DNA of 64,000 nt, taken from assembly GCA_946122785.1 (NCBI GenBank), contig CAMGYJ010000005.1, positions 89,584,547 through 89,648,546 on the forward strand, written 5' to 3'. The position numbers were made by a program, and so were the translations under genes. Below are positions 35,633 to 56,118 of the stretch, one piece after another (positions within the stretch are counted from its first letter, which is position 1; each line of letters starts with the position of its first letter). The notes under the pieces are model-generated. The model did no database searches, was not told the DNA's origin, and saw only the letters and a list, made by a program, of their open reading frames with translations. This DNA comes from Linum tenue. Taxonomy: Eukaryota; Streptophyta; Magnoliopsida; Malpighiales; Linaceae.

Positions 35633-35695
35633 TTTCAATAATACAAAAGGAGCCGAGTCATTAATGAGCTAATGACGTCGGCATTGCACCAGCAG

Positions 35696-37055
35696 TGATA
35701 ACGATGTAATTGCATGATTTTATACCCCTATTTCTTATCCATTTGCGGAGCATGGTTGTGTGTTTTGGCCTATTTTACGCCGGGTTGTGCTACTTTGTCC
35801 TATTTCAGGTCCCAGGCGTCAAAGGGAAGGCCAAGCACGAGTTTCGGATCGTTTGGAAGTCGTTTGGACAAGCCAGGGCCAAAACACGGGCAGGAGGCCC
35901 TCAGAACACGGCCGTGTTCCTGACCGTGCTTTTATGGCCGAGACTTCCCAAGGGTGGCTTGGACCACCTAAAAAACACGGGCAGGCCTGAGGAAGAACAC
36001 GGCCGTGTTTTGCACTGAACACGCCCGTGTTTTCATGATGCCCGTGGCCGTGTTTTTAAGCCAGATCCAAAACACGGGCGGGCTGAGGCAAAGCACGGCC
36101 GTGCCCTCGACCGTGCTTTGGCCAATGATGCCCTTTTAGGCAGATTTCAGCCAAATTGAGAGGGGATTCGAGTTTTAGAGAGACAGAGCGATTCCTAGAG
36201 AGAGAAAGCGACGAACAAGAGTCTCCAAGTGCCCTAGCTTGATCTTCAACACCATTGGAGCTTGGCTTGAGCTTGGAGAAGTGTCGATTCAACGTCCAGG
36301 AGCAGAAATCCATCTTCACAGTATGATTTCCGCATCTGATTCTGCTTTTGCTTCTTTCTCCATGGAGTAGTTCTCCCATTCATCTGGGTGTGGGAAACCC
36401 TAGTTCTGTATGTTGGGATTGATTGTATGAACCCAAGTACTGTTTCTATGAATTGATTATATTCGATTGAGGTTTGAATGATTGAATGGCATGAATCCTG
36501 ATCAAATTCCTGTTGTTTCTGCTTTAACCTAGAATGAGAATATCTGCCTAGGTTAATAGAGTATCCTTAATTGAAGGTAGTGAATTGGTGACTTTAGTCG
36601 AGGAGCCAATTCACTATTCTGTACCGAATTCAATTCGGTAGTGGAGGTTTTGTTCATAGGGCCTCAATCTGTTTACTCCGGTGGAGGTTAGTCGCCCGCT
36701 AGAGACTCAGATTGAGAGGGTCTGAAGACCTTTAGTCGAGACTTCAGACTGTTTGAGAACCTTCCGCAGTATAACTATAATAGAAATTGAACTTGGTAAT
36801 TACAATCCGGCTTAAGTGCAGACTAGGGGGAACCATATCCGGGTGACCTCTCTTAACCTGAAAACAACCGTTTAGTTGCTTTGCTTGCTTGTTAGTTTAG
36901 ACCTTCACTAAAGTTTCATTGCTAGATAATACGAATTCACTGAGTAGTCATCACATCTAGGACCCGGGTTGACATTAAAACCCAAACCCGCTATACTACG
37001 CTTTAGGAAGTGGTTACACTTGGCCAATTTCTAGAGTGACAGTAGGAGTGAGTCA
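35696..37055 (+). repeat. 5' LTR of the outer Athila-type element
   Basis: TGATAACGATG ... GGAGTGAGTCA, 1360 bp. Dyad modules built on AACACGGCCGTGTT and arms AAAACACGGGC occupy about 35880-36120. From about 36120 on it aligns closely with the LTR of the inner element; the module region does not. Confidence 0.93.
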
Positions 37056-37061
37056 AGTTTT

Positions 37062-37079
37062 TGGCGCCGTTGCCGGGGA
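37062..37079 (+). other. Primer binding site of the outer element, tRNA-Asp
   Basis: TGGCGCCGTTGCCGGGGA, 18 bases complementary to the tRNA-Asp(GUC) 3' end, six bases after the LTR. Confidence 0.85.
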
Positions 37080-37203
37080 CGGCTAGGTTGTTGAAGAAAA
37101 GTGATTTTTGTTACTCTAGCATTTACATTTTCGCATTTAGTTTTTGTTCTTTCCCACTTGTGCCTTCACGGGTTTGCATTGCTTGATTGTGTGCAGATAG
37201 TGC

Positions 37204-39760
37204 ATGACCCGTAGCCAGTCGGGAGGTTTACTGCCGTTGGATCCAGAGATTGAACGCACCTGCAACCAACTTCGGAGACAACAGCGAGCTAGACTGGCTA
37301 CGGTGGAGTACAGAGACGGCCAATTGAGCAGCGAATCCGAGGAAGAGCACGAGATGGAGGGCGAAGACATCCCACAACCGGGGAATGCTCGACAGGCTCC
37401 CCCGGTGAATCAGCATCCACCACCACCGCCGGGTCCCACCTTGGAGTACTACTACACTCCACGGATTGCTGACATCCGCCCGGTCATCCTCTATCCACCC
37501 ATCCCAGCAAACAACCTCGAGATCAAGCCATGCTGGATTCAACTCATTACATCATCTATCCAGTTCCATGGTTTGAAGGATGAGGAAGCCCGGGCACACC
37601 TTTCCCGTTTTCTGCAGCTGACGAACGGGTTCAAGCTGAATGGTGTTCCGGATGATGCAATCCGTCTTCACCTCTTCCCCCATTCTCTGGCAGGGAATGC
37701 TAAGAGGTGGTTGGAGACCCAGCCCCCTTTGTCCATCACTTCTTGGCACGATCTAGCAGACAAGTTCGTGCACAGGTATTATCCGGCATCGAAGACTACT
37801 GAGATTCAGCGGGAGATCACTCACTTCCGCCAGGAGCCAGATGAGTCCCTTCGTGATGCATGGGAGCGGTACATGGGATACTTCTGGCAGTGTCCCCATC
37901 ATGGCTTCAGGGATGCTTTCACAGTAGGGAACTTCTACAGTGCCCTCACCCCAGACAGCCAAAGGGTGATCGAGTCTCTATGCCCAGGAGAGGATATTCT
38001 CACTAAGACTCCACCCGAGCTGAACCAGATGATTAGTACCTTGGCTGCCTGCGATCATTCCTGGGGGCAGAGCAGCAGAGGCAGGCATTCCCGGGACCGT
38101 GGTGTGCATGCCATGGAGGCCCGATCCGGGTTAGAGCAGCAGGTGGCTGAGTTGGTGCAGACATTGAAGCAGCCCAATAGTCTCCTACCGGGCCGAGGTG
38201 TCGCTCCGCCTCCAGTCGCTCAGTGTCAGTGGTGTGAGAGCCCGAACCACCTGGTGGAAGATTGTCAGTCTATGAGGGAGTCTTCTACTCCCCAAGAGCA
38301 GGTGGATTTCATCGCCAATGCTCGGCGCCTGGACCCATACAGCAACACCTACAATGAGGGATGGCGCCAGCACCCTAACTTTGCCTGGAGCAGCAACACC
38401 AACCAGCCACCTGGTTTCCCAGCACCAGCAGGTGGTTTCCAGCAGAGCCAGCCCTTCTAGGCTAGGCAGGGGCCACCACCACAGCAGCAGCCCTACCAGC
38501 CTAGGCAAGGGCAGCCATTCCAGCAGCCCCAGGGCCAGTTTGCTCATCCTCCAGCAGCCGCAGCACTAGATCCTCAGATATCTGACCTGAAAGAATATTT
38601 TGCAGGCTTTCATGACCACCAGTCAGGTGAACTTCACAAGGATGGATCAGAACATAGCCTCACTGGAGGCAGGCCAGAGGAACCAAGGTGCCATTCTGCA
38701 AGATCTACAAAATCAGATTGGGAGCCTAGCTCGCCAGAACACTACTAGGGCACCGGGGACTCTGCCTGCCACCACCATCCCCAATCCACGAGACCCGCAT
38801 GAGGCCGCACACGCCATCACCACCAGGAGTGGCAAGACTACATCTGCTGCTCCTGCCCAGCCCAGGCGAGACGACCCACTACCGGCTTCAACACCTCCAG
38901 CTGATACTGCAGAGGTGGGGGAAGGCAGCACAGCACCTGCTCCAAAGCCGCAACCTGTGGTTAAGGAGCATACACCCCAGCTGCCCTTCCCCACTCGACT
39001 TCATAAAGACAAGCTGGAGACAGAGTTTGCCAAGTTCATGGCAATGTTGAAGCAGGTCAACATCAGCATGCCGTTCGTGGAAGCACTGTCGAAGATGCCC
39101 AAGTATGCCAAGTTCATGAAAGACCTCCTCACCAATAAGAAGAAACTTGGGGATCTTTCGACAGTGATGCTCAGCGAGGAGTGTTCTGCTATCTTGTAGA
39201 ACAAGCTGCCCGAGAAGCGCAAAGACCCAGGGAGTTTCACTATCCCTCTTGTTATTGGAAGCATGCATGTAGGAAAGTCCTTGGCGGACCTAGGCGCTAG
39301 CATTAACGTCATGCCCTATAAATTGTTTAAGAAGCTAGACCTAGGTGAACCTAGAGCTACTAGGATGAGTATTCAGTTAGCTGATCGTTCTATCGTGCAT
39401 CCTAGGGGTATCATTGAGGACTTGCTTGTTAATGTTGGTGCATTCACATATCCTGTTGATTTTGTTATTTTGGATATAAATGAGGATGTGGATGTGCCTT
39501 TGATTTTGGGTAGACCATTTCTCGCCACCGCCAAGGCGCTTATTGATGTGCATAGTGGTAAATTGATTCTGCGTGCTGGTGATGAACAGGCTACTTTTTC
39601 TGTGTCTGACAATGGGAAACATTCTCATTTGCATGATGACATAGACTACTGTGATGTGCTTACCGATTTTGAGACCGCACTCGCCATCACGAGTGCGGGT
39701 ACTGATGATGCTCTTGAGCGTTGTATTTTGCTAGGTGAGCAGGCATTGCAGGAGCCATAG
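37204..39760 (+). pseudogene. gag-protease of the outer element, with amber stops and a frameshift
   Basis: Starts MTRSQSGGLLPLDPEIERTC. The gag core has HLFPHSLAGNAKRWLETQ, SITSWHDLADKF and SLRDAWERYMGYFWQCPHHG. The knuckle is CQWCESPNHLVEDC (CX2CX4HX4C, about 38220). A TAG at 38458 stands where the inner element has CAG. One extra base near 38590 shifts the frame. A second TAG at 39197 again replaces CAG. The protease follows (LADLGASINVMPYKLFKKLD, PLILGRPFLATAKAL), then a third TAG at 39758 before pol. Apart from these breaks the protein is nearly complete and close to the inner copy. Confidence 0.9.
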
Positions 39761-39772
39761 CTGGCGGAGCAG

Positions 39773-41364
39773 TTGGCCGCGTTGGAGAGTGGCCCTTTCT
39801 TGGAGGGCGACAGGCTGTTTAAACCGATCTCATCCTCCACCCGCATCACCACCTCCTTGGCGGGGCACGAGTTCTACTGCTTCCTGGATGGGATGTCCGG
39901 GTACTTTCAGATCCCTATTGCACCGGAGGACCAGGCGAAGACCACTTTCACCTACCCCTTCGGCACATTTGCTTACCGGAGGATTCCATTCGGGCTATGC
40001 AACGCCCCGGCCACCTTTCAGCGATGCATGCTCGCCATATTTGACCGTCTGGTCGGCGAGATCATGGAGGTGTTTATGGACGATTTCTCGGTTTATGGAG
40101 ACTCCTTCTCTCACTGTCTCCATAACCTGGAACTCGTTCTTAAACGGTGTGAAGAAACGAACCTGGCACTGAGTTGGGAGAAGTGTCACTTCATGGTTCG
40201 AGAAGGCATAGTTCTGGGGCACAAGATCTCCAATATGGGGATCGAGGTAGACAGAGCAAAGATCGAGACTATCAGCAAGCTGCCTCCTCCTACATCTGTA
40301 AAGGGGATCCGGAGTTTTCTTGGCCATGCAGGTTTCTATAGGCGGTTCATCAAGGACTTCTCGAAGATCGCCCTGCCCCTAACTAAGCTTCTAGAGAAGG
40401 ATGCCCCCTTCCTGTTCACTGATGCTTGCACAGCGGCGTTCACCACCTTGAAGGAGAAGCTCACCCAGGCTCCTATCATGGTTGTTCCAGACTGGTCCTT
40501 ACCATTTGAGCTGATGTGCGACGCCAGTGACTTTGCTGTTGGAGCTGTTTTGGGGCAGAGGCGAGATCAACACTTCCGACCTATCTACTACGCCTCGAAG
40601 ACTCTGAATGATGCCCAGGAGAACTACACCACCACCGAGAAGGAGCTGCTTGCGGTGGTGTTTGCCTTTGATAAGTTTCGCCCCTATCTGGTCTTGTCCC
40701 AAGTGACCGTGTACACAGATCACTCCGCGATTAGATACCTGATGAGCAAGGCCGATGCCAAGCCTCGGCTCATACGATGGATCTTACTGCTGCAGGAGTT
40801 TGATATTGTGATCCGGGACAAGAAGGGAGCAGAAAATGTTGCAGCTGATCACCTCTCCCGGTTGGACGCACCTCCTGCGGACAACCTCGTGGAGGAGATT
40901 GATGACTCCTTCCCAGATGAGAGGTTGATGATGATGTGCTTGGTGGAGAGTGTCACCCCCTGGTACTCTGATTTTGCGAACTATTTGGTGGGCCAGCAGC
41001 TGCCCAAGGGGATGGCAACTCACGCCAAGAGGAAGTTTTTCTCCGATCTGAAGTACTACTTCTGGGATGACCCTCATCTTTTTCGGATCGGAGCCGACGG
41101 GATCATCCGTCGTTGTGTTATGGAGAGTGAGATGGAGGGCATTCTATCTCACTGTCATGAGGGACCTACTGGCGGTCATCACGGAGGAAACCGCACGGCG
41201 AGGAAGGTGCTCCAGTCGGGATTTTACTGGCCCACGCTCTTCAAGGATGCAGACGCCTTCGCACGCAGGTGCGACCGATGCCAGAGGTCAGGTAACATCT
41301 CTGCCCGTGATGAGATGCCCCAGAATGTGTTTATCACTTGTGAGATTTTTGATGTCTGGGGTAT
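39773..41364 (+). pseudogene. pol of the outer element, first part: RT (N-terminally deleted), RNase H, integrase zinc domain
   Basis: The frame continues from the protease. RT begins abruptly at [18 protein letters not shown] after an unrelated-looking 25 residues, so the usual fingers part with the VCIDYR motif is missing. The rest is intact: [18 protein letters not shown], catalytic FMDD near 40077, then RNase H from [17 protein letters not shown] (40505) to [11 protein letters not shown]. The integrase zinc domain HCHEG...HHGG...CDRCQ is at about 41150-41285. The frame is cut inside the codon after DVWG by the inner element at 41365 and resumes at 49502. Confidence 0.9.
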
Positions 41365-42705
41365 TGATAGACCGATAATTATACATATTTTCACCCCTAT
41401 TATGGAGCCGTTTGTGCTGAGGAATCTCGTGTTTTAAGCCGATTTTACGCCAGGTTGTGTGTTTGTGTCATATTTCAGGTCCCGGCGTTGGAATCGAGGC
41501 GGAGAAACGAGTTCTGGGTCGAAAGGAGCCGAGTTGGGACTAAGGGGGCTGCAGGAGGAAAATACCCGGTCGGATGGCAAAATACCCGACCGGGTATTTA
41601 TCGTTTTTGGCACCCGTGAGAAACAGAAGGGGGCCCGGGCGAAGGCCTTAAATCCCCGGTCGGGGATTTTGGTGGTAGACCGGGGATTTTCGCCTTTAGT
41701 GGAACGGTGCGTTTCACAATACCCGGTCGAACCATAAAATACCCGACCGGGTATTTTGACCGGGTATCGCGACCAGGCAGCTGATAAAAGAGGAAGAAGG
41801 CCAATTTTCAAAGGGTTCCGAGTTTTTGAGAGAGAAACCGATACCTAGAGAGAGAAAGCGTCGAACCAGAGTTCTCAAGCGCCATAGATCGATCTTCAAC
41901 ACCATTGGAGCCCGTCTTGAGCTTGGAGAAGTGCGATTAAACGTCCAGAAGCAGGAATCCAACTTCACAGTATGATTTCCGTGTCTGAATCTGCTTTTGC
42001 TTCTTTCTCTATGGAGTAGTTTCCCCATTCATCTGGGTATGGAGAACCCTAGATTTGTATGCTAGGTCTGATTGTATGAACCCAAGTACAGTGTTTGTGA
42101 ATTGATTATATTCGATTGAGGTTTGAATGATTGAATGACTTGAATCCTGATCAAATTCCTGTTGTTTCTGCTTTGACCTGGAATGAGAATATCTGCCTAG
42201 GTTGATAGAGTACCCTTAATCGAAGGTGGCGAATTGGTGACTTTAGTCAAGGGGCCAATTCGCTATTCTGTACCGAAGTCAATTCGGTAGTGGAGGTTTG
42301 GTTCATTAGGGCCTCAATCTGTTTACTCCGGTGGAGGTTAGTCGCCCGCTAGAGACTCAGATTGAGAGGGTCTGGAGACCTTTAGTCGAGACTTCAGGCT
42401 AATTGAGAACCTTCCGCATTATAACTTTCATGAAAACTGAACTTGGCAAATTGCAATCCGACTTAACGGCAGTCTAGGGGGAAACCATATCCGGGTGACC
42501 TCTCTTGACTTGACAACAAACCGTTTACTTGCTCTGTGTTTTGTTTGCTTGAGTTTCACTAAAAGTTCACTGCTAAATAACAAGAATTCACCGAGTAGTC
42601 ATCACATCTAGGACCCGGGTTGACATTAAAACCCGACCCGCTATACTACGCTTTAGGAATTGGTTATACTTGGCCATTTTCTAGGGTGACAGTAGGAGTG
42701 AGTCA
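41365..42705 (+). repeat. 5' LTR of the inner element
   Basis: TGATAGACCGA ... GGAGTGAGTCA, 1341 bp. Three dyad modules with cores at 41580-41599, 41650-41669 and 41736-41757 (arms such as AAATACCCG/CGGGTATTT). Confidence 0.93.
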
Positions 42706-42711
42706 AGTTTT

Positions 42712-42729
42712 TGGCGCCGTTGCCGGGGA
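42712..42729 (+). other. Primer binding site of the inner element, tRNA-Asp
   Basis: TGGCGCCGTTGCCGGGGA, identical to the outer element. Confidence 0.85.
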
Positions 42730-42852
42730 CGGCTAGGTTGTTGAAGAAAAGTGATTTCTGTTACTTTAGCATTTTCATTTTTGCATTGAGTTTTTGCTTT
42801 GTCCCACTTGTGCCTTCACGGGTTTGCTTGCTTGAGTGTGTGCAGGTAGTGC

Positions 42853-45674
42853 ATGACCCGTAGCCAGTCAGGAGGTTTACTGCCGTTGGATCCAGAGCTT
42901 GAACGCACTTGCCGCCAACTTAGGAGACAGCAGCGAGCTAGACTGGTTACGGGAGAGCGCATAGACGGCCACTTGACCAGCGATTCTGAGGAAGAGTACG
43001 AGATGGAGGGCGAAGACATCCCACAACCGGGGAATGCGCGACAGGCTCCCCAGGTGAATCAGCATCCACCACCACCGCCGGGTCCCACCTTGGAGTACTA
43101 CTACACTCCACGGATTGCTGACATCCGCCCGGTCATCCTCTATCCACCCATCCCAGCAAATAACTTCGAGATCAAGCCAGGCTGGATTCAGCTCATCACA
43201 TCCTCCAGTTCCATGGCTTGAAGGATGAGGAAGCCCGGGCACACCTTTCCCGTTTTCTGCAGCTGACAAACGGTTTCAAGCTGAATGGTGTTCCGGATGA
43301 TGCAATCCGCCTTCACCTCTTCCCCCATTCTCTGGCGGGGAATGCTAAGAGGTGGTTGGAGACCCAGCCCCCACTGTCCATCACTTCTTGGGACGATCTG
43401 GCGGATAAGTTCGTGCACAGATATTATCCGGCATCGAAGACTACTGAGATTCAGCGGGAGATCACTCACTTCCGCCAAGAGCCAGATGAGTCCCTTCGTG
43501 ATGCATGGGAGCGGTACATGGGATACTTCTGGCAGTGTCCCCATCATGGCTTCAGCGATGCTTTCACAGTGGGGAACTTCTACAGTGCCATCACCCCAGA
43601 CAGCCAGAGGGTGATCGAGTCTCTATGCCCAGGAGGGGATATCCTTACTAAGACTCCACCCGAGCTGAACCAGATGATCAGTACTTTGGCTGCCCGCGAT
43701 CATTCCTGGGGGCAGAGCAGCAGAGGCAGGCACTCCCGGGACCGTGGTGTGCATGTTATGGAGGCCAGATCCGGGTTAGAGCAGCAGGTGGCTGAGTTGG
43801 TGCAGACACTGAAGCAGCCTAACAGTCTCTTTTCGGGCCGAGGTGTAGCTGCGCCTCCAGTAGTTCAGTGCCAGTGGTGTGAGAGTCCAAACCATCTGGT
43901 GGAGGACTGCCAGGCTATGCGGGAGTCCTCTACTCCCCAAGAACAGTTGGCCTTCATCGCCAATGCTCGGCGCCTCGATCCATACAGTAACACATACAAT
44001 GAGGGATGGCGCCAGCATCCCAACTTCGCCTGGAGCAACAACACCAACAAACCACCTGGTTTCCCAGCACCAACAGGTGGTTTTCAGCAGAGGCAGCCCT
44101 ACCAGGATAGGCAAGGGCCACCACCACAGCAGCAGCCCTACCAGCCTAGGCAAGGGCAGCCATTCCAGCAGCCCCAGGGCCAGTTTGCTCAGCCTCCAGC
44201 AGCCGCAGCTCCCGATAATCAGATGGCTGATCTGAAGAACATTTTGGCGACATTCATGACCACCAGCCAGGCGAATTTCGCAAGGGTGGACCAGAGCATA
44301 GCTTCTTTGGAGGCAGGGCAGAGGAACCAGGGTGCTATTTTGCAAGATCTACAGCACCAAGTCGGTGTCCTAGCGCGCCAGCTTACTGCTCGGGCCCCGG
44401 GGACTCTACATGCCACCACCATCCCCAATCCGCGGGACCCGCACGAGACCGCACATGCCATTTTCACCCTGAGCGGCAGTCCTACATCAGCTGATCCTGC
44501 CTCGACTAGGCAGGAGGAACCACTACCTGCTTCAGCACTTCCAGCCGGTGATACAGAAGTGCGGGTGGAGAAGGAAGCCCCTGCTCCCAAGCCACAACCA
44601 GTGGTGAAGGAGCACGTACCCCAGCTTCCCTTCCCCACTCGCCTTCACAAAGACAAGTTGGAGACTGAGTTTGCCAATTTTATGGCAATGTTGAAGCAGC
44701 TCAACATCAGCGTACCATTTGTGGAGGCACTGTCGAAGATGCCCAAGTACGCTAAGTTCATGAAAGATCTCTGCACCAACAAGAAGAAACTTGGGGATCT
44801 CTCGACAGTGCTGCTGAGCGAGGAATGTTCTGCCATCCTGCAGAACAAGCTGCCCGAAAAGCGCAAGGATCCAGGGAGTTTTACTATCCCTCTTACTATT
44901 GGCAGCATGCATGTAGGAAAGTCCTTGGCGGACCTGGGCGCTAGCATTAATGTCATGCCATACAAATTGTTCACAAAGCTAGACCTAGGTGAACTTAGCC
45001 CTACTAGGATGAGCATTCAGCTAGCTGATCGTTCTGTGGTGCATCCTAGGGGTATCATAGAAGATTTGCTTGTTAATGTGGGTGCATTCACATATCCTGT
45101 TGATTTTGTTATTCTGGATATAAATGATGATGTGGATGTGCCTTTGATTCTAGGTAGACCATTTCTTGCCACCGCCAAGGCACTGATTGATGTGCATGAT
45201 GGTAAACTGATCTTGCGTGCTGGAAATGAACAGGCTGTTTTTCCTGTGACTGAGTCTGATTATTGTGCTATGATTTCTGTATCGCCTGTGCATGCTATTT
45301 CTGATCAGGTACACGAGCCTGTCGTGTACCCTTCTGCACCTCTCATTTTGCAGGACCCGCCTATCATTCCTTCGTCGCCACTCCATCCAGTCTCGCCTCC
45401 GAACAAAAAGCTCAAGGAGGGGTGGCGGCCGAAGCCGCAAGTGGCTAAGCCTGCACGGAAGAAGAGTGGAGACCACTATGAGCTGGTCCCACCCCCCGCA
45501 CCACGACCACCCTGGCCATCCGAGTACTCACTCGCCTGCATCTTGCCGGATGGCCAGGTCGAGCTGACTTCTGCTGGTGGTTGCAACCGTCGGGTGCACG
45601 GTCACCACCTGAAGCTGTACCTCAACAGCGATGTGGATCCGCTCTTGGAGGCACCTGTTCCTGCCCTTCCCTGA
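42853..45674 (+). pseudogene. gag-protease of the inner element with an integrase-tail end; one 4-base frameshift
   Basis: gag starts MTRSQSGGLLPLDPELERTC. A four-base deletion near 43205, judged against the outer copy (ACATCATCTATCCAG there, ACATCCTCCAG here), breaks the frame; from 43218 the rest is one open frame to 45674. It has the knuckle CQWCESPNHLVEDC, the protease LADLGASINVMPYKLFTKLD and PLILGRPF. After a Pro-rich linker it ends ACILPDGQVELTSAG and VHGHHLKLYLNSDVD, which matches the integrase end of the outer element ([23 protein letters not shown]). So about 3 kb of pol is missing between protease and the integrase tail. Confidence 0.9.
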
Positions 45675-45681
45675 GTATCCA

Positions 45682-45745
45682 CCATGGGCGTCCAGCTAAA
45701 AGACGGTAAAGAAGCGCTTGTGGGGAGGCAACCCCACCACGGTTT
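45682..45745 (+). promoter_or_regulatory. Conserved post-pol motif with a GTGGGG/CCCCAC hairpin, inner copy
   Basis: Starts a few bases after the stop codon: CCATGGGCGTCCAGC, AAAGACGGTAAAGAAGCGC, then GTGGGG-AGGCAA-CCCCAC (45720-45737), a perfect six-bp stem. It is identical over about 60 bases to 50381-50443 although the flanking sequence is diverged. Possible roles are RNA processing, export or packaging; none is shown. Confidence 0.7.
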
Positions 45746-45987
45746 GACTTTCTTTCTTATGTTTCGAGTCGGATTGCGATTTGGTTTTGTTTTGGTTTGT
45801 TTCATTTGTTCTGGATGACGTCGTATTGGGCTGACATCGGACCTCACATATTCTGGTTGAGCTCTTCTGTTCCCCTTGAGCTGTGCTGTGTTCCCGACTG
45901 GTCCATTTCCAGTCCTCTGCCGTCCGTGCATCCCGGTAACATCGTTCCCCTTTCCTTCCCTCTTCTCCATTGAGGGCAATGTCGATC

Positions 45988-46001
45988 TTAAGTGTGGGGG
46001 G
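45988..46001 (+). other. Internal polypurine-tract-like motif, inner element
   Basis: TTAAGTGTGGGGGG, the same word as the terminal tract at 48139, about 2.1 kb upstream of it. Confidence 0.6.
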
Positions 46002-46035
46002 ATGTTTATCTTTTGACTGCATTAGCTCTGTTTGT

Positions 46036-46089
46036 GTGCTTGGAGCCTAGTCCACTGTCCAAATCTTACGATTTGAGGGCTCCAAGTAC
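46036..46089 (+). other. Bulged hairpin motif, inner element copy
   Basis: Lower stem GTGCTTGGAGCC/GGCTCCAAGTAC (12 pairs, one G-U), internal loop TAGTCCACTGTC opposite AG, upper stem CAAATC/GATTTG, loop TTAC. It lies after the internal polypurine-like tract. Confidence 0.7.
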
Positions 46090-46795
46090 TGCTGTTGGAT
46101 CATATTGGCACTGTGTTTTGATGGATGAATTGATTGGTTTTCGGATTAATGCATGACGACTTGTTTGTGACTAGGACAACCTATGATGAGGACTGAGATG
46201 TGCAGTAAAACGATGTAGGGGTTCAGTTTGTCAACTGTTTGCTTGCCAACTGTGACTTGATCTGACTTGATCTGATTACTTGTCCTTGACAGTCGTTTAT
46301 GCATCTAGTTCAGGGTATCAGAATGTGAGATAGAGTATATAGGTGGCCATGTGAGATTTGAGCCTGCTCGTTTCTTTCTTGTGCGATAGATCCCTCTTCC
46401 ATGATGTGTAGCATTCACGTTGTCACTAGCTAAGGTGATGGGGGCATAGGATTAGCCCACGCCCAAAACTGACTGTCCTGATGTGTCATACCCCCTAGTC
46501 AGCCCTTTGAGCCGTGTGTTATCCTTTCTTTTGGTCTATAATGAAAAAATCACCCTTGTTGCATCTTTTAGAAGGTTCCACAGAGTGGTTTTATATATTC
46601 TCTGCTGTTTCTGCTAAAGTCTATGTGAGTGTTGGAGGTAGTGCTTAAAAATTGGGCAGGTGTTTGAAATTTATGCAGAAGTGGGGGCTCTCTTAAGAAA
46701 TGAAAAGAAAAATGAAAGAAAAACAAAGAAAAATTGAAAGCAAAAGAGAGTCACTACCAAAAATCGGAGTAATGCCCAGTAAGCAGTGTTTCTTA

Positions 46796-48033
46796 GCAGT
46801 CTGGCTTGGAAATGCTGATGATTATGCCTCCTTAGCTCTTGTGCTCTTAAGATATTGAGGAATGCAGAATAGCAGAAAGAAAATACCGGGTTGGTTGACT
46901 GTGATTGTGTGTTTGGAAAATGTGGAACCTTTTTGCTATGAATACTTCCACCACCTAAAAGGCCTTTTCCCCATGTCCAAGACCCTAGCCAGTCATTTGA
47001 ACCTGTGTCTAAGACCTCCTGATTAGTTAGTGGTGACACCCCATATGTGAACTCTAGCATTTAGAGGCTGCCATCATGGTGAAGAGATGATAGGGATTGA
47101 GAGAAATAGCATGCGCATCTTTCGCATCAAAAATTGTCCTGACCCCACTGGTCGAGAGTGAGTGATTCATTTCCATTTTCTATATGCTCTTGTACCCCGG
47201 TGAGGACCTAGATTGCTCGGTCTCTATTCTGATGTTTTGAGTTGGATGCATGAGTCGACTGTTTTGAGTAAGTGGTTGAATCAAGTCTAGGTTGGCTAGT
47301 GAACAGATGGGAGACTCTTCCTTTACTCGATTTGCTGCACTCGAATGTCCTTTGTGGTGGTTGTCCAGGTTGTTATTAAGGTTGTGCATGTATTGATGTT
47401 TGAAAACAAGTGCGGCAGTCTGGCTTGGAAATGCTGATGATTATGCCTCCTTCGCTCTTGTGCTCTTAAGATATTGAGGAATGCAGAATAGCAGAAAGAA
47501 AATACCGGGTTGGTTGACTGTGATTGTGTGTTTGGAAAATGTGGAACCTTTTTGCTATGAATACTTCCACCACCTAAAAGGCCTTTTCCCCATGTCCAAG
47601 ACCCTAGCCAGTCATTTGAACCTGTGTCTAAGACCTCCTGATTAGTTAGTGGTGACACCCCATATGTGAACTCTAGCATTTAGAGGCTGCCATCATGGTG
47701 AAGAGATGATAGGGATTGAGAGAAATAGCATGCGCATCTTTCGCATCAAAAATTGTCCTGACCCCACTGGTCGAGAGTGAGTGATTCATTTCCATTTTCT
47801 ATATGCTCTTGTACCCCGGTGAGGACCTAGATTGCTCGGTCTCTATTCTGATGTTTTGAGTTGGATGCATGAGTCGACTGTTTTGAGTAAGTGGTTGAAT
47901 CAAGTCTAGGTTGGCTAGTGAACAGATGGGAGACTCTTCCTTTACTCGATTTGCTGCACTCTAATGTCCTTTGTGGTGGTTGTCCAGGTTGTTATTAAGG
48001 TTGTGCATGTATTGATGTTTGAAAACCAGTGCG
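46796..48033 (+). repeat. 619-bp tandem duplication in the inner element
   Basis: GCAGTCTGGCTTGGAAATGC begins at 46796 and at 47415. The two units differ at only a few positions (CTTAGCTC/CTTCGCTC, CACTCGAATG/CACTCTAATG, AAACAAGTGCG/AAACCAGTGCG). The outer element has one unit (about 54016-54640). Confidence 0.93.
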
Positions 48034-48138
48034 ATTCACGTGTTTTGTGCCCTTATGACTTGTCCCCAGTGTTGGTTGATTGAAATATGTAAAGCTTACC
48101 TAGTGTCTGACTTGGTTTGCTTGGGGACAAGCAAACGG

Positions 48139-48155
48139 TTAAGTGTGGGGGAGTT
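48139..48155 (+). other. Polypurine tract of the inner element
   Basis: TTAAGTGTGGGGGAGTT immediately before the 3' LTR (TGATAG at 48156). Confidence 0.8.
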
Positions 48156-49496
48156 TGATAGACCGATAATTATACATATTTTCACCCCTATTCTGGAGCC
48201 GTTTGTGCTGAGGAATCTCGTGTTTTAAGCCGATTTTACGCCAGGTTGTGTGTTTGTGTCATATTTCAGGTCCCGGCGTTGGAATCGAGGCGGAGAAACG
48301 AGTTCTGGGTCGAAAGGAGCCGAGTTGGGACTAAGGGGGCTGCAGGAGGAAAATACCCGGTCGGATGGCAAAATACCCGACCGGGTATTTATCGTTTTTG
48401 GCACCCGTGAGAAACAGAAGGGGGCCCGGGCGAAGGCCTTAAATCCCCGGTCGGGGATTTTGGTGGTAGACCGGGGATTTTCGCCTTTAGTGGAACGGTG
48501 CGTTTCACAATACCCGGTCGAACCATAAAATACCCGACCGGGTATTTTGACCGGGTATCGCGACCAGGCAGCTGGTAAAAGAGGAAGAAGGCCAATTTTC
48601 AAAGGGTTCCGAGTTCTTGAGAGAGAAACCGATACCTAGAGAGAGAAAGCGTCGAACCAGAGTTCTCAAGCGCCATAGATCGATCTTCAACACCATTGGA
48701 GCCCGTCTTGAGCTTGGAGAAGTGCGATTAAACGTCCAGAAGCAGGAATCCAACTTCACAGTATGATTTCCGTGTCTGAATCTGCTTTTGCTTCTTTCTC
48801 TATGGAGTAGTTTCCCCATTCATCTGGGTATGGAGAACCCTAGATTTGTATGCTAGGTCTGATTGTATGAACCCAAGTACAGTGTTTGTGAATTGATTAT
48901 ATTCGATTGAGGTTTGAATGATTGAATGACTTGAATCCTGATCAAATTCCTGTTGTTTCTGCTTTGACCTGGAATGAGAATATCTGCCTAGGTTGATAGA
49001 GTACCCTTAATCGAAGGTGGCGAATTGGTGACTTTAGTCAAGGGGCCAATTCGCTATTCTGTACCGAAGTCAATTCGGTAGTGGAGGTTTGGTTCATTAG
49101 GGCCTCAATCTGTTTACTCCGGTGGAGGTTAGTCGCCCGCTAGAGACTCAGATTGAGAAGGTCTGGAGACCTTTAGTCGAGACTTCAGGCTAATTGAGAA
49201 CCTTCCGCAGTATAACTTTCATGAAAACTGAACTTGGCAAATTGCAATCCGACTTAACGGCAGTCTAGGGGGAAACCATATCCGGGTGACCTCTCTTGAC
49301 TTGACAACAAACCGTTTACTTGCTCTGTGTTTTGTTTGCTTGAGTTTCACTAAAAGTTCACTGCTAAATAACAAGAATTCACCGAGTAGTCATCACATCT
49401 AGGACCCGGGTTGACATTAAAACCCGACCCGCTATACTACGCTTTAGGAATTGGTTATACTTGGCCATTTTCTAGGGTGACAGTAGGAGTGAGTCA
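48156..49496 (+). repeat. 3' LTR of the inner element
   Basis: 1341 bp, the same length as the 5' LTR, about five substitutions. Confidence 0.93.
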
Positions 49497-49501
49497 GGTA
49501 T

Positions 49502-50375
49502 CGACTTCATGGGCCCCTTCCCTCCATCTTTTGGTAACACCTATATTCTGGTTGCTGTTGACTACGTCTCTAGGTGGGCGGAGGCGCAAGCTTTGCCCAC
49601 CAATGATGCTAGACGTGTTTGTGGTTTTTTGAAGCAGCTCTTCTCCCGGTTCGGGACACCTAGAGCCATCATAAGCGATAGAGGCACCCATTTCCAGGGC
49701 CAATTTGATAAACTACTCTCTCGCTATGGTTCGACTCACAAGGTGTCCGTGGCCTATCATCCCCAGACCAGTGGCCAGGCCGAGCTGACGAACCGGGAGC
49801 TCAAGCGGATCCTGGAGAAAATGGTGGATCAGTCCCGCAAAGATTGGTCCACCAAGCTCGATGATGCTCTATGGGCGTATCGCACTGCCTACAAGACGCC
49901 CATTGGTACTTCACCGTACCGGCTGGTCTATGGAAAGGCTTGCCATTTGCCCGTGGAGCTAGAGCACAAGGCCTTCTGGGCCCTTAAGCTGCTCAACTTG
50001 GATGTTCGTGTTGCAGGTACTGAGCGAAAAATGCAGATGTTGGAGCTGGAAGAGTGGCGTTACCACGCATATGAGAACACCAAGCTGTACAAGGAGCGCA
50101 CTAAGCGCCTACACGATGCACGGTTGAGGGGTCTGAAAGAGTTCCAGGTTGGTGATCGAGTTCTCCTTTACAACTCTCGCCTGAAGCTCTTTCCCGGAAA
50201 ACTTCGCTCCCGGTGGTCTGGACCGTTCACGGTCACCCAGGTGTTCCCATATGGCACAATCGAAATTGCCAACCCGCAAACTGAGCCGTTTAAAGTGAAT
50301 GGACATCGTCTCAAGCTCTACCTGGGAGACGAGGTCGAACGTGCGGAGTTGGTAGTGGAACTCGCGGACCCTTAG
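49502..50375 (+). pseudogene. pol of the outer element, second part: integrase core and C-terminus
   Basis: Removing the inner element and one GGTAT restores [17 protein letters not shown] in frame. The catalytic triad is visible: [16 protein letters not shown] and [10 protein letters not shown]. The C-terminal [11 protein letters not shown] (GPF motif) and [11 protein letters not shown] end the protein at a TAG (50373). No chromodomain is present, as expected for this branch. This half has no internal stops. Confidence 0.92.
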
Positions 50376-50380
50376 TTCCG

Positions 50381-50443
50381 CCATGGGCGTCCAGCTAAAA
50401 GACGGTAAAGAAGCGCTTGTGGGGAGGCAACCCCACCACGGTT
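50381..50443 (+). promoter_or_regulatory. Conserved post-pol motif with a GTGGGG/CCCCAC hairpin, outer copy
   Basis: Same sequence as 45682-45745. The hairpin is at 50419-50436. It begins six bases after the pol stop. Confidence 0.7.
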
Positions 50444-50656
50444 TGCATTTCTACCCTTTGTTTATTTTATTTTATTTTATTTTATTTTTGTCGGTTTTTG
50501 CGTCATAGAGTCTGTCCGGAGTCTGTCTGGAATGTATTTCGTGCCTCTGGCGGTGCTTTTTAATGTGTAATTGAGTAAATTTTCGAGCCGGGGCACGAAT
50601 GAGTCTGGGTGGTTTGAAATTGGAATTTGGAAAATCAGCATTCTGGGCTCGGCATA

Positions 50657-50915
50657 AAAAACACGGGCAGCAGGGGGTCAAAACACGGCCGTGTTTTGCC
50701 CCTTGCCCGCCCGTGTTTTAAATTTTTGCTCATTGTGCTCGCGGCCATAAAAGCACGGGCGGCCTGGGGTTCAGAACACGGCCGTGTTCTGCCCCCATCC
50801 CGCCCGTGTTTTAAAGGAGGGGGAGCACGCTCTCGGCCATTAAAACACGGGCGGAACTTGGCCAAAACACGGCCGTGTTTTGGCTGCCCGTGTTTTAACT
50901 CCCCTCCTATAAAAA
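50657..50915 (+). promoter_or_regulatory. Internal dyad array followed by a TATA box, putative promoter of the extra ORF
   Basis: Three modules, each made of a left arm (AAACACGGGC type), a central palindrome (AAAACACGGCCGTGTTTT, or GAACACGGCCGTGTTC) and a right arm (GCCCGTGTTTT), repeat the design of the LTR array. TATAAAAA lies at 50908-50915 directly after the third module. The extra ORF starts at 51705. Promoter function is an inference from this layout. Confidence 0.5.
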
Positions 50916-51491
50916 CGAAATTTCAGCAGCCCCCCCTCATTTCCCCCATTTTTCTCAAAATCCTAGCCGCCCTCCCCATTTCCCCTCGCCGGAAATCGCC
51001 CCCCTCCTCCTCCTCTTCGGTTTTTCGGCCATTTCTTGCTCCCCCGACCTCCAAATCAAAAACCGCGACCTCCCCCACGCTCCTGGCGTCGAGGAGCACA
51101 TTCCCCAGAGGTTTGGGCGAATTTGGCCGAGGTTGGGTCGCCGGCGGTGAGTTCTCCGGCGAGCCTTCGGTGAGTTTTCCGGCGACTTTGGGGGCTTCGT
51201 TCTATTTTCTTCACCTTTCTCCGGGTATCTTCTTGCGTCTCCAGGTGTGTTATCCTTCCCTGTCTTGTATTTATGGAGAATCGATACCTAGGGTTAGGTG
51301 AAGAACTTGGATTGTGCAATAATTTGCGAATGATTTGGTAGGCTGATGGTTTTCTTTGCATGCTCTGTTCTATCTTGGAATTTCAGTCCCTCGGCCTACC
51401 ATTTGCATGTGGGATTATTTCCGGGTTTGTGGTGATTTTGGATGTGGTTGGTTGCTTGGTGATTATTTGGATTGGATTTGTTGTTTATTTC

Positions 51492-51539
51492 CCGGGGGCC
51501 TAGTCCACTGTCCAAATCGCTTGATTTGAGGGACCCCGG
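51492..51539 (+). other. Bulged hairpin motif, outer element copy 1
   Basis: Lower stem CCGGGGGCC/GGACCCCGG with one G-A mismatch, the same internal loop TAGTCCACTGTC opposite AG, upper stem CAAATC/GATTTG, loop GCTT. Located upstream of the extra ORF. Confidence 0.7.
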
Positions 51540-51586
51540 TGAATTTGGCTGTGTACTTTTTGTGTGATGGGGATGTTTGTTTTTCT

Positions 51587-51634
51587 CCGGGAGTCTAGTC
51601 CACTGTCCATATCTTCCGATATGAGGGCTCCCGG
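51587..51634 (+). other. Bulged hairpin motif, outer element copy 2
   Basis: Lower stem CCGGGAGTC/GGCTCCCGG (one G-U), the same internal loop, upper stem CATATC/GATATG (a paired change from CAAATC/GATTTG), loop TTCC. It starts 95 bases after copy 1. Confidence 0.7.
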
Positions 51635-51704
51635 TGTGATCTTGACTAACATTGACCCCGTTTGCTCGTGTCCCATTTTGTCCGTTCTTGTGCTATGCAG
51701 GGTC

Positions 51705-52934
51705 ATGGAACACTACCTAGAGCAGTTGAGCATCACCCAGCGCCATGCACTGCGGACTATCCGTACCCGCACCATTCCCGAGCACCTGCACCTCGATTTT
51801 GCGGTGTTCGATGCCCTTCACGCCAGGCCGCAGATGGAGGCCGCTGTGCAGGCTTATGGTTGGCAGCGCCTGCTCTGTCTCGTCGAGTCGACCTATCAGG
51901 AGCTCGTCTGGGAGTTCTATGCCTCCTTCCACCACAACCAGAGGGGGAATGCCGACCATAGTAACGCCGTTCAGTTCACACTTGGCGGGGTCGAGCACTC
52001 CATCAGTTACTGGGAGCTCGCCAATGCACTTCGGGTGAACTCCCCCCACTCCAGCGACGGGGTCCTGCGCTTGGACATCACCGATCCCACAGACTTTCCA
52101 TGCCAGGCATACTTCCGGCGGATCTGTCATCCCGACTACGTGGACGTGGAGTACGTCGCCAGCCAGACGAGAGGCTCTCTCCTTAGGCCTGAGTGGCGCA
52201 TCCTCAACCACCTGCTCACCAGTTCCTACACCCCTAGCCGGGGCTCGGCCAACCGGGTCACCCTCTGGACCCTGTGGTTCATGGAGGCGATGGGTCGCTC
52301 TGAGGACACCATCCAGCTGGGCTCGGTGGTCGCCCGGACATTCGCGAAAGCTGCTGCCAACCAAAGTCGCGCCCTTGTCTGTGGCCCAGTCATCACGGCC
52401 CTGGCCCGCTACTACGGGGTCGACATCACTGGGATGACCCTGGTCCACGGGCCCACTCCACTCAGCGAGAGCAGCCTCCGTTCTCAGCACCTGGTGGCCC
52501 GCCAGGGGCGTGTTCACTGGATTGCGGGGTTTCCCCAGCCGTCTGAGCCCGCCGCGGGAGACCAGCCAGAGTCCAGCGCTGCTGGATCACGCCGGGTTCC
52601 TCGCCGTGCTACTCCTCGTGACCAGGCTCCCACGAGCCCCGCCGCTGCCCCCCGGTCTCCTGCCCCCAGGTCTCCTCCACCCGTGGTGGTTCCCATCTCC
52701 GATCAGTTGGCAGCTATCGCTCAGTAGAACGAGCGCATCCTGGCCGGCCAGGAACGCATTCACACCCGCCTGGATCGCGAGCGGGACCGCGGCCGTCGAC
52801 TGATGTCCGGCCAGCACTACATCATGTCCTACCTGGGCATGGACCCGAGCGCAGTTCACTATCCTTTTGTCCAGTCCCCGGGGTATGAGGACCAGTACCC
52901 ACCACCTGCCGGCGATGGTGGCGATGACTTCTAG
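51705..52934 (+). pseudogene. Extra ORF in the env position (Athila ORF family), one amber stop
   Basis: It opens MEHYLEQLSITQRHALRTIR at 51705, five bases after a good 3' splice-site sequence (TTGTGCTATGCAG), so it may be made from a spliced RNA. It contains FTLGGVEHSISYWELANALR and WRILNHLLTSSYTPSRGS, like the plant Athila ORF family. A TAG at 52725 interrupts it; the frame then continues NERILAGQERIHTRLDRERD and ends PPPAGDGGDDF at 52934. I see no signal peptide or membrane segment, so despite its position it does not look like an envelope protein. The C-terminal third is Pro-rich and then charged. Function unknown. Confidence 0.75.
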
Positions 52935-53209
52935 TGGCGAGAGTACCTGGTTCTGACCGTGATTCCTGTTCCAGACTGAGACTCCATGTTTATGTTGTTT
53001 CATTTGGATTTGTTTTTTTATTTTGGATTGTAGACTCGGAACTTCGGTTCTATCACCCAGTGTGTCTCTTGTGTGACTTTAGCTTTGTGCCTTGGACTGG
53101 ATCCCCTTCCCGTCCTCTGCTATTGTCTGGTCTGCCTCTCGATCTCCGTTCCTGATTTCACGGTAACATCGTTCCCCTTCCCTCTGCTCCATTGAGGACA
53201 TTGTCGCAT

Positions 53210-53224
53210 TTAAGTGTGGGGGGG
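53210..53224 (+). other. Internal polypurine-tract-like motif, outer element
   Basis: TTAAGTGTGGGGGGG, about 1.5 kb upstream of the terminal tract; the flank matches 45935-46001 of the inner element. Confidence 0.6.
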
Positions 53225-53254
53225 TTCTTTGTATTAATTGGAACGGGTGTATGG

Positions 53255-53308
53255 GTGCTTGGAGCCTAGTCCACTGTCCAAATCTTGAGATTTGAGGGCT
53301 CCAAGCAC
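53255..53308 (+). other. Bulged hairpin motif, outer element copy 3
   Basis: Lower stem GTGCTTGGAGCC/GGCTCCAAGCAC (12 perfect pairs), the same internal loop, upper stem CAAATC/GATTTG, loop TTGA. Located downstream of the extra ORF, at the position equivalent to the single copy in the inner element. Confidence 0.7.
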
Positions 53309-54741
53309 TGCTGTTTGCTTGATAATTGATCGTATTGGCATTGTGGATGTGATTAGAGAATTGAATGGCTTTTGACTCAATGCATGACAACTTGAGTGTG
53401 ACTAAGATAGCCTATTACGATGACTGAGATGTGTAGGAGAGTTGTGTAGGGGTTCAGTTTTCGTCTGTTTGCTTACCAACTGCGTCTTGCATTTGATCAC
53501 TTGCTTTTGACAGTCATTTATGCATCTAGTTCAGGGAATCAGAATGTGAGATAGAGCATATAGGTAGCCATGTGAGATTTGAGCCTGCTCGTTTCTTTCT
53601 TGTGCGATAGATCCCTCTTCCATGAAATGTAGCATTCACGTTGTCACTAGCTAAGATGATGGAGGCATAGGATTAGCCCACGACCAAACTGACTGTCCTG
53701 ATGTGTCATATCCCCTAGTCAGCCCCTTTGAGCCGTGTGTTATCCTTTCTTTCGGTCTGAAATGGAAAATCACCCTTTGCATCTTTTAGAAGGTTCCACA
53801 GAGTGGTTTTTGCATGCTTTCTGCTGTTCTGCTAAATGTAATGTGAGGGTTGGAGGTAGTGCTTAAAAGTTGGGCGTGTGTTTGAAAAATGTGCAGAGGT
53901 GGTGGTTCTCTTAAGGAATGAATAAAGAAAAAATAAAGAAAAACAAAGAAAAATTGAAAGCAAAAGAGGGCCACCACCAAAAATTTGAATAGTGCCCATT
54001 AAGTAGTGTTTCTTAGCAGTCTGGCTTGGAAACACTAACATTCATATAACCTCCTTCGCTCTTGTGCCCTGAAGAATTTGATTAATGCAGAATAGCAGGA
54101 TGAAAGTTACTGGTTTGCTTGATTGTGGTTTTGTTGGGTTTGGAAATGTGGAACTTTGTGCTATAACTGCCACCACCTAAAAGGCCTTTTCCCCATGTCC
54201 AAGACCCTAGCCAGTCATTTGAACCTGTGTCTAAGACCTCCGGATTAGTTAGTGGTGACACCCCCTTATGTGAACTCTAGCATTTAGAGGCTGCATTCAT
54301 GGTGAAGAGACGTTAGGGATTGAGAGAATAAGCATGCGCAATTTTCGCATCTAATTGTCCTGACCCCACTGGTCGAGAGTGAGTGATTCATTTTCTCATA
54401 TTCTCTATACTCCTTACCCTGGTGAGGACCTAGATTGCTCGGTTTTAATTCTGATATCTTGAGCTTTGTGCATGAAGTGACTGTTTTGAACAAGTGATTG
54501 AGTCAAGTCTATGTTGGTTGGTGAACAGGAGAGAACTCTTCCTTTGCTCGATTTTACTGCATTCGAATGTCATCTGCGGTGGTTGTCTAGGTTGTCATTT
54601 AGGTTGTCCGTGTGTTGATGATCGAAAGCCAGTATGATCCACGTGTTTTGTGCCGATACGATTTGCCCTAAAGCCTACTTGATTGAAATGGCTCGAGCTT
54701 ACCTGGTGTCTGACTTGGTTTGCTTAGGGACAAGCAAACGG

Positions 54742-54758
54742 TTAAGTGTGGGGGAGTT
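54742..54758 (+). other. Polypurine tract of the outer element
   Basis: TTAAGTGTGGGGGAGTT immediately before the 3' LTR. Confidence 0.8.
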
Positions 54759-56118
54759 TGATAACGATGTAATTGCATGATTTTATACCCCTATTTCTTA
54801 TCCATTTGCGGAGCATGGTTGTGTGTTTTGGCCTATTTTACGCCGGGTTGTGCTACTTTGTCCTATTTCAGGTCCCAGGCGTCAAAGGGAAGGCCAAGCA
54901 CGAGTTTCGGATCGTTTGGAAGTCGTTTGGACAAGCCAGGGCCAAAACACGGGCAGGAGGCCCTCAGAACACGGCCGTGTTCCTGACCGTGCTTTTATGG
55001 CCGAGACTTCCCAAGGGTGGCTTGGACCACCTAAAAAACACGGGCAGGCCTGAGGAAGAACACGGCCGTGTTTTGCACTGACCACGCCCGTGTTTTCATG
55101 ATGCCCGTGGCCGTGTTTTTAAGCCAGATCCAAAACACGGGCGGGCTGAGGCAAAGCACGGCCGTGCCCTCGACCGTGCTTTGGCCAATGATGCCCTTTT
55201 AGGCAGATTTCAGCCAAATTGAGAGGGGATTCGAGTTTTAGAGAGACAGAGCGATTCCTAGAGAGAGAAAGCGACGAACAAGAGTCTCCAAGTGCCCTAG
55301 CTTGATCTTCAACACCATTGGAGCTTGGCTTGAGCTTGGAGAAGTGCCGATTCAACGTCCAGGAGCAGAAATCCATCTTCACAGTATGATTTCCGCATCT
55401 GATTCTGCTTTTGCTTCTTTCTCCATGGAGTAGTTCTCCCATTCATCTGGGTGTGGGAAACCCTAGTTCTGTATGTTGGGATTGATTGTATGAACCCAAG
55501 TACTTTTTCTATGAATTGATTATATTCGATTGAGGTTTGAATGATTGAATGGCATGAATCCTGATCAAATTCCTGTTGTTTCTGCTTTAACCTAGAATGA
55601 GAATATCTGCCTAGGTTAATAGAGTATCCTTAATTGAAGGTAGTGAATTGGTGACTTTAGTCGAGGAGCCAATTCACTATTCTGTACCGAATTCAATTCG
55701 GTAGTGGAGGTTTTGTTCATAGGGCCTCAATCTGTTTACTCCGGTGGAGGTTAGTCGCCCGCTAGAGACTCAGATTGAGAGGGTCTGAAGACCTTTAGTC
55801 GAGACTTCAGACTGTTTGAGAACCTTCCGCAGTATAACTATAATAGAAATTGAACTTGGTAATTACAATCCGGCTTAACTGCAGACTAGGGGGAACCATA
55901 TCCGGGTGACCTCTCTTAACCTGAAAACAACCGTTTAGTTGCTTTGCTTGCTTGTTAGTTTAGACCTTCACTAAAGTTTCATTGCTAGATAATACGAATT
56001 CACTGAGTAGTCATCACATCTAGGACCCGGGTTGACATTAAAACCCAAACCCGCTATACTACGCTTTAGGAAGTGGTTACACTTGGCCAATTTCTAGAGT
56101 GACAGTAGGAGTGAGTCA
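54759..56118 (+). repeat. 3' LTR of the outer Athila-type element
   Basis: 1360 bp, the same length as the 5' LTR, with four substitutions noted (one each in the module region, the GAAGTGYCG word, AGTACTKTTTC and CTTAASTGC). Confidence 0.93.

Follow-up and report, generated by a model that had tools for sequence, protein, structure and literature searches.

Athila-type retrotransposons of Linum tenue carry a bulged hairpin that, judging from comparison of its many copies, is very probably a genuine RNA structure kept by selection, which seems to act on the sense strand. The window analysed is a 64,000-nucleotide (nt) stretch of the L. tenue genome (contig CAMGYJ010000005.1, positions 89,584,547 to 89,648,546 of the forward strand); it is plant DNA with two related nested Athila-type elements, E2 lying inside the pol region of E1, and E1 has an extra 3' open reading frame (ORF), ORF2. 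An earlier note on this DNA had located four copies of the motif and proposed a selected RNA structure. The first statement is confirmed and the second supported: the copies are present, 54 nt each, with starts at 46036, 51489, 51584 and 53255, and a set of 84 distinct hairpins shows compensation of stem changes beyond what a tree-aware null produces.

Four hairpins in two nested elements

The four copies, all on the sense strand of their elements, are as follows.

46036..46089, + strand: H1, in E2; orthologue of H4, with a G-U at the third pair
51489..51542, + strand: H2, first hairpin 5' of ORF2; its lower stem has one G.A mismatch, private to this copy
51584..51637, + strand: H3, second hairpin 5' of ORF2, with upper stem CATATC/GATATG
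53255..53308, + strand: H4, 3' of ORF2 and of the second polypurine tract

The motif consists of a lower stem of 9-12 bp, an asymmetric internal loop (12 nt on one side, AG on the other) and an upper stem of usually 5-7 bp. Its loop string TAGTCCACTGTC occurs exactly 4 times in the window, and a covariance model search of the sense strand returned these four copies only; on the other strand, the arms of H4 and H1 match the model weakly. A single recent duplication, which the earlier note had named as a possible undoing of its proposal, does not explain the copies: H2, H3 and H4 are three paralogous sites in E1 and H1 is the E2 orthologue of H4, and only the H1/H4 pair has clearly alignable flanks. 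The lower stem had been described as paired in every copy. This is correct for the G-U at the third pair of H1 but not for H2, whose G.A mismatch is private among the copies listed, most other H2 copies having GGCCCCCGG. The compensatory change CATATC/GATATG in the upper stem is indeed found in H3, but changes on both sides extend further than had been described, with six pairs differing in this way among the four copies (columns 5, 6, 9 and 27, and outer columns 1 and 2). Overall, 94.4% of the cells are paired, and the six both-side pairs compare with 0-1 when the partner is slid. Folding z-scores are -5.2 for H1, -4.7 for H4 and -2.6 for H3, and only -0.7 for H2, which forms only when folded in some of the longer contexts. 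In local context, H1, H3 and H4 form their inner nine lower pairs with probabilities near 1, and the upper stem of H4 has 0.6. At the hairpin, E1 and E2 share 94% identity, compared with 57-76% in adjacent comparison windows; this contrast is not decisive alone, because 15% of the 3'-region comparison windows are as similar as the hairpin.

Selection on the fold

The statistical check for covariation that the earlier note had proposed was run on 84 distinct gap-free hairpins with tree-aware nulls, in which parsimony changes on a FastTree tree were re-scattered over columns, either uniformly or by column rate (1000 simulations each). The hairpins are 92.3% paired versus 64 or 71% under the nulls, and the covariation score is 4.38 versus 0.54 or 0.42; both values were reached in 0/1000 simulations. 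Nine pairs have changes on both sides, a number that the nulls reached in 17 and 4 of 1000. Opposite-strand matches were dropped, as were L057 (H2, with an insertion), L095 and L097 (indels) and L083 (26 nt), and a chimeric hairpin at L022:1477 was kept apart.

One-sided stem changes can be sorted by the pair that they leave. Among 172 hairpins sorted by site, the kinds of change common to at least 2 copies comprise 14 G-U, 4 A-C and 6 other. This shared G-U excess has an indicative one-sided P of 0.001 against the 26.7% G-U expected from flank rates, and 0.011 for transitions only. Private kinds, obtained by subtraction, are near neutral (5 G-U, 4 A-C and 18 other). Since a G-U on the sense strand is an A-C on the other, and G-U is favoured, selection seems to act on the sense-strand RNA.

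Divergence from the column majority at H4 is 0.0032, versus 0.0298 around it (29 loci), i.e., approximately nine times lower. For H2 and H3 together, the values are 0.030 and 0.062 (28 loci), the start of ORF2 being included in the surroundings. Within the hairpin, variation is greatest in the terminal loop, which the earlier note had described as differing freely.

Occurrence across the genome

The exact 20-mer CCTAGTCCACTGTCCAAATC has 887 matches in the L. tenue genome versus 0 for its reversed control, and the stem-only pattern CTTGGAGCC-N12-CAAAT, with a free 12-nt loop, has 4,427 matches versus 2. The proposed confinement to Athila-type elements is borne out in the loci sampled: Athila-type segments adjoin the hairpin in 30/30 loci taken as the first 30 places of the 20-mer (all on contig C2, and biased to that loop), with placement 5' of ORF2 and in the 3' region. 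Loci found via ORF2 are free of this bias, and all three hairpins are present in 28/30 of them (E1 itself is among these loci). With a more divergent ORF2, all three hairpins are present at 10/10 of the first ten places, counting eight H2 copies cut by the region edge, a 26-nt H2 match in one, and one H4 that is also cut.

At L022:1477-1530, the hairpin in the pre-ORF2 position is chimeric, with an H4-type left arm, an H3-type right arm and one mismatch; it looks like the outcome of exchange between sites. Searches of viral contigs with 18-mer, gapped and generic patterns gave 0 matches, and integrase and reverse transcriptase (RT) protein searches in viral contigs gave none confirmed. In prokaryote contigs, the 18-mer returned 6 records, all bacterial or bacterial metagenome-assembled genomes, which we take as chance. 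A protein search with the antisense frame over H4 returned a single candidate and no scored match.

An internal loop with conserved edges and a variable middle

The earlier note had called the 12 unpaired bases fixed. In the sequences compared, this is nearly so within the subfamily of the window only; other loop types in the same genome differ at 4-8 of the 12 bases, altering the middle and keeping TNGN....TGYC. Among relatives, column 19 alternates between A and G, and column 23 between T and C. A hand count of the first 100 places of the stem-only pattern (of 4,427; all on contig C2) gave 64 copies of TAGTCCACTGTC, 8 of TAGTCCGCTGTC and 15 within 1-2 changes of these, together with 10 of a second loop type (e.g., TTGATGTATGCC and TAGTTGTATGCC), 2 of a third (TAGTATGTTGTC and TAGTGTGTTGTC) and 1 antisense arm. 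Across eight representative loops, positions 1, 3, 9, 10 and 12 are constant and positions 2, 4 and 11 are two-state, which gives the consensus above.

The other loop types keep the stems, the lower stem above all. Of 15 further sense hairpins, chosen from the 100 places because their loops are unusual, 12 have an exact right arm GGCTCCAAG, even though this arm lies outside the search pattern. The element L106, of a family that we call B, lies within the 10 kb to the left of the window; its ORF2 has 31-35% amino acid identity to that of E1, and its alignable 3' pieces are 68-79% identical. Its one clear hairpin, ATGCTTGGAGCC-TTGATTTATGCC-CAAATT..AATTTG-AG-GGCTCCAAGCAT, starts 46 nt past AAGTGTGGG and has both-side changes at the first lower pair and the last upper pair. 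For 16 rows across loop types, 95.8% of cells are paired, with 8 both-side pairs versus 0-1 when slid; these rows were hand-picked for diversity and leave out 8/10 fetched B-type rows, including six mismatched ones and L110. Copies with a varying loop and uncompensated stem changes were what the earlier note had set against itself; the loop does vary in the other types; the stems there show both-side changes, and an upper-stem mismatch in some copies.

The L106 locus also contains another element of the deletion type, in which two such hairpins, decayed and in tandem, lie at 598-654 and 687-740 (- strand), approximately 60 and 145 nt past a tract resembling a polypurine tract (PPT).

Position relative to polypurine tracts and ORF2

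Features of the window that lie near the hairpins or their tracts are listed here.

53212..53224, + strand: PPT2 of E1 (second, internal PPT), ending 30 nt 5' of H4
45990..46001, + strand: PPT2 of E2, 5' of H1
54744..54758, + strand: terminal PPT of E1, with no bulged hairpin 3' of it
51696..51701, + strand: TGCAG/G, acceptor-like by its letters, just 5' of ORF2

An extra PPT is also described for Athila4/Calypso in a passage of PMC2829016. The exact PPT2 string AAGTGTGGG is found 33-43 nt (median 34) 5' of H4 in 47/68 H4 rows; for the remaining 21/68, either the exact string is not within 160 nt or the locus ended first. Copies with unusual loops have an exact GTGTGG tract upstream in 9/15 cases (30-54 nt) and a visible G-rich run in the other 6, and the distance from PPT2 to the H4-type hairpin, approximately 30-55 nt, is similar across the element types examined. 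On the other side of ORF2, the end of H3 is 59 nt from GCAGG in E1, and 58-59 nt in 41/44 H3 rows in which GCAGG was found (of 54).

One family-B element was read; it has ORF2, and a cmsearch found neither H2 nor H3 in it. On these few elements, H4 is probably ancestral, and H2 and H3 look like additions. Several loci (L019, L032 and L036) have the layout of E2, in which gag-protease stands next to the segment that follows integrase, and then come PPT2 and one H4-type hairpin. L020 resembles these derivatives, with a more divergent gag, and L026 keeps H2 and H3 without PPT2, H4 and any of ORF2 beyond its start. One hairpin thus seems enough in derivatives that appear to have spread, which is what a signal acting in cis on genomic RNA would require.

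Short stems also occur just 5' of PPTs, namely GGTTTGCTT..AAGCAAAC before the terminal PPT of E1 (54717-54739) and CATTGAGGGCAATG before the internal PPT of E2 (45968-45981).

Possible role and alternative explanations

To our knowledge, how the full-length RNA and the extra ORF of Athila-type elements are exported, packaged and expressed is largely unknown. We give about an even chance to the proposal, made from sequence and position, that the hairpin is a cis-acting, protein-binding RNA element for export or packaging of unspliced RNA. It would act in the sense transcript, with the asymmetric internal loop as the putative binding site of a host- or element-encoded protein, and the bound protein would single out the unspliced genomic RNA, either for export from the nucleus or for packaging. 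Full-length RNA would bear three sites. Should a spliced mRNA for ORF2 exist, splicing would remove H2 and H3 from it and leave H4. The derivatives that have lost RT, integrase and ORF2 by deletion retain one site, and they appear to have spread. A broader version has a low chance of being right: a recognition element of the whole Athila lineage, duplicated around the extra ORF and read for unspliced-RNA export by either an export factor of the host or the protein made from ORF2, would be a plant counterpart of the constitutive transport element (CTE) and the Rev-response system, with the loop middle setting protein specificity per family.

Several observations weigh against a selected hairpin with such a role. 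When all kinds of one-sided change are counted, private ones included (19 G-U, 8 A-C and 24 other), the P value for the G-U excess is 0.064 (0.018 for transitions only), and all these P values are indicative, since the rows are related, come from one genome, and carry no correction for relatedness. A C-against-T mismatch in the upper stem is common to 10/50 H2 rows. The upper stem is weaker in the B-type hairpins: read by eye, it has one T.T mismatch in 6/11 of them, and L110 is without the upper hairpin. Among the loci sampled via ORF2, L055 is without H4 and L061 has H4 only. At ten further places with divergent ORF2 (L087-L105), H3 is present in 8 plus one weak case, H2 in 6 and H4 in 7/9 fetched; the regions are short, and some hairpins were perhaps missed. 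Finally, the spacing between PPT2 and H4 also fits a role in reverse transcription.

Such a role, in which the hairpin acts on the internal PPT upstream, e.g., through RT pausing or RNase H positioning, and makes PPT2 a second plus-strand primer, is in our view unlikely. The spacing in 47/68 H4 rows, its recurrence in E2 and in the family-B element, and the exact string or G-rich run upstream of the unusual-loop copies (9/15 and 6/15) speak for it, and a conserved inverted repeat beside the PPT of Sireviruses has been proposed to guide RNase H (in the part of PMC2829016 on these elements). However, there is no AAGTGTGGGG tract near H2 or H3, the terminal PPT of E1 has no hairpin after it, the PPT2 string is not within 160 nt or falls past the locus end in 21/68 H4 rows, and L026 has H2 and H3 yet lacks PPT2 and H4. 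Quite unlikely, too, is an element for ORF2 expression, with H2 and H3, 5' of the acceptor-like TGCAG/G, controlling ORF2 splicing or translation. The 58-59 nt spacing from H3 to GCAGG..ATG in 41/44 rows is in its favour, and splice acceptors have been predicted for Athila env-like ORFs (PMC2829016, in a passage on these ORFs), but that spacing may be mere inheritance. H4 sits 3' of ORF2, and the family-B element read has ORF2 but no H2 or H3 found by cmsearch. A role limited to ORF2 is further argued against by the deletion derivatives of the E2 kind, which have no ORF2 and keep the hairpin.

Two further explanations are very improbable. A DNA-level element (a cruciform or a transcription-factor site) would fit arms that form an inverted repeat, and folding is expected of the minus strand too; the inherited excess of sense-strand G-U over A-C is unexpected under DNA pairing, and no part varies more than the terminal loop. 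We think no better of a neutral by-product, i.e., repeats carried along with the element whose pairing is left from an old inverted repeat. The copies are related and part of their conservation is recent shared descent, and the E1/E2 similarity of the hairpin is matched by 15% of 3'-region comparison windows. Against this, the tree-aware nulls did not reach the observed pairing or covariation score, hairpin divergence is below that of the surroundings, and the family-B element has kept the stems with a changed loop, its alignable 3' pieces being 68-79% identical. A microRNA-like precursor was rejected by eye (54 nt, large asymmetric loop).

With its thousands of natural copies, in families whose loops differ, this compact hairpin provides a defined RNA to probe and a bait for its protein. 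It would also make a new family of the Rfam type and mark the 3' part of degraded copies for annotation.

Relation to known systems

The direct repeats that flank src in Rous sarcoma virus (RSV) and the CTE of Mason-Pfizer monkey virus (MPMV) serve export of unspliced RNA, according to a passage of PMC12789967. Like the MPMV CTE, the cytoplasmic accumulation element (CAE) of murine leukaemia virus (MLV) and the RSV repeats, the hairpin is a candidate cis-acting RNA, and by structure and location it is a structured element within the region of the full-length RNA. The RSV repeats, which serve unspliced RNA, flank an extra gene, src (PMC12789967, same passage), much as the hairpins flank ORF2. 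Unlike the retroviral export elements, the hairpin belongs to a plant Ty3/Athila host element and comes in 54-nt units, three of them in most ORF2-bearing copies sampled. The Ty1 packaging and dimerisation hairpins are also structured cis-acting genomic RNA (as excerpted from PMC5454406), but lie at the 5' end, whereas the Athila hairpins are in the 3' part. Sireviruses, too, are plant elements with a conserved structured motif next to PPTs (several PPTs together with an inverted repeat, and palindromic repeats in the long terminal repeat (LTR); PMC2829016, section on these motifs). They are Ty1/copia elements whose inverted repeat includes the terminal PPT, whereas here the element is Ty3 and the hairpin follows an internal PPT and also precedes ORF2. 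Athila4/Calypso are of the same element type, with an env-like ORF and an extra PPT; in the portions of PMC2829016 and PMC1142308 that treat Athila4, Calypso and Diaspora, the hairpin is not described.

The earlier note knew of no named motif of this kind, and no Rfam family matches the hairpins, either in the window scan or at E up to 1 over 51470-53330; the latter gave three sub-threshold matches, all away from the hairpins. A literature search for Athila with hairpin, stem-loop, structure, Linum, Transposase_32 or plant mobile domain returned no description of the hairpin among the matches listed, which were mostly titles or starts of abstracts. The loop string itself, among the matches listed, led to human and cell-biology papers that are unrelated by title, probably through primers.

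Other features of the window

The two elements are laid out as follows.

35696..56118, + strand: E1, whole element, with gag, protease, RT/RNase H, integrase and ORF2; LTRs with 4 differences in 1360
35691-35695 and 56119-56123: E1 target-site duplication (TSD), AGCAG
35696..37055, + strand: E1 5' LTR
37204..38460, + strand: E1 gag (PF03732)
39263..41364, + strand: E1 protease, RT and RNase H, ending where E2 is inserted
41365..49496, + strand: E2, nested deletion derivative; LTR differences 5/1341, TSD GGTAT, one hairpin (H1)
43218-45674: E2 gag-protease
49509..50375, + strand: E1 integrase, resuming beyond E2 (PF00665)
51705..52727, + strand: E1 ORF2 (env-like/aORF), ATG at 51705, 340 codons to stop
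54759..56118, + strand: E1 3' LTR, with 4 differences in 1360 versus the 5' LTR

E1 has the Athila-type order of gag, protease, RT/RNase H, integrase and extra 3' ORF between LTRs. In E2, gag-protease is joined directly to sequence that in E1 comes after integrase, and no RT, integrase or ORF2 was found within it. The low LTR divergence suggests that both elements were recently inserted. The primer-binding site (PBS) in the window starts with TGGCGCC, which we take to be a tRNA-Asp PBS of the Diaspora/Calypso type. We dropped the idea that the hairpin loop pairs with the primer tRNA, as a 5-nt match is expected by chance. A figure legend in PMC1142308 states that the PBSs of Diaspora and Calypso pair with tRNA-Asp.

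The ORF2 region matches Transposase_32 (PF20167) weakly, at 38.7 bits and under the cut-off of 45, and 19/25 ORF2 homologues, which come from Linum trigynum and L. tenue, have a precomputed PF20167 annotation. Several relatives extend to approximately 409 amino acids. A 3' ORF related to Transposase_32 has been described in a sunflower Athila (PMC11728184, in a passage on that element). Some relatives of ORF2 (51705-52727) are named Putative plant transposon protein or Aminotransferase-like plant mobile domain, which suggests a relationship to plant mobile domain proteins.

In the 3' region, two more blocks (53509-53777 and 54171-54305) have 91-100% E1/E2 identity in 54-column windows, above most of the rest. 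The 3' region of E2 contains a 619-bp tandem duplication (46796-48033), with copies 99.5% identical. Rfam snoR71 (RF00097) matches three times, antisense within gag ORFs, at 37802-37907, 43447-43552 (- strand) and 1680-1785 (+ strand), so this family may pick up Athila gag in plant genomes. Between integrase and ORF2 (50650-50900) lie GC-rich palindromic tandem repeats, ACACGGGCGG..ACACGGCCGTGTT, spaced approximately 92 nt by eye, which are the lowest-energy 54-nt folds of the window.

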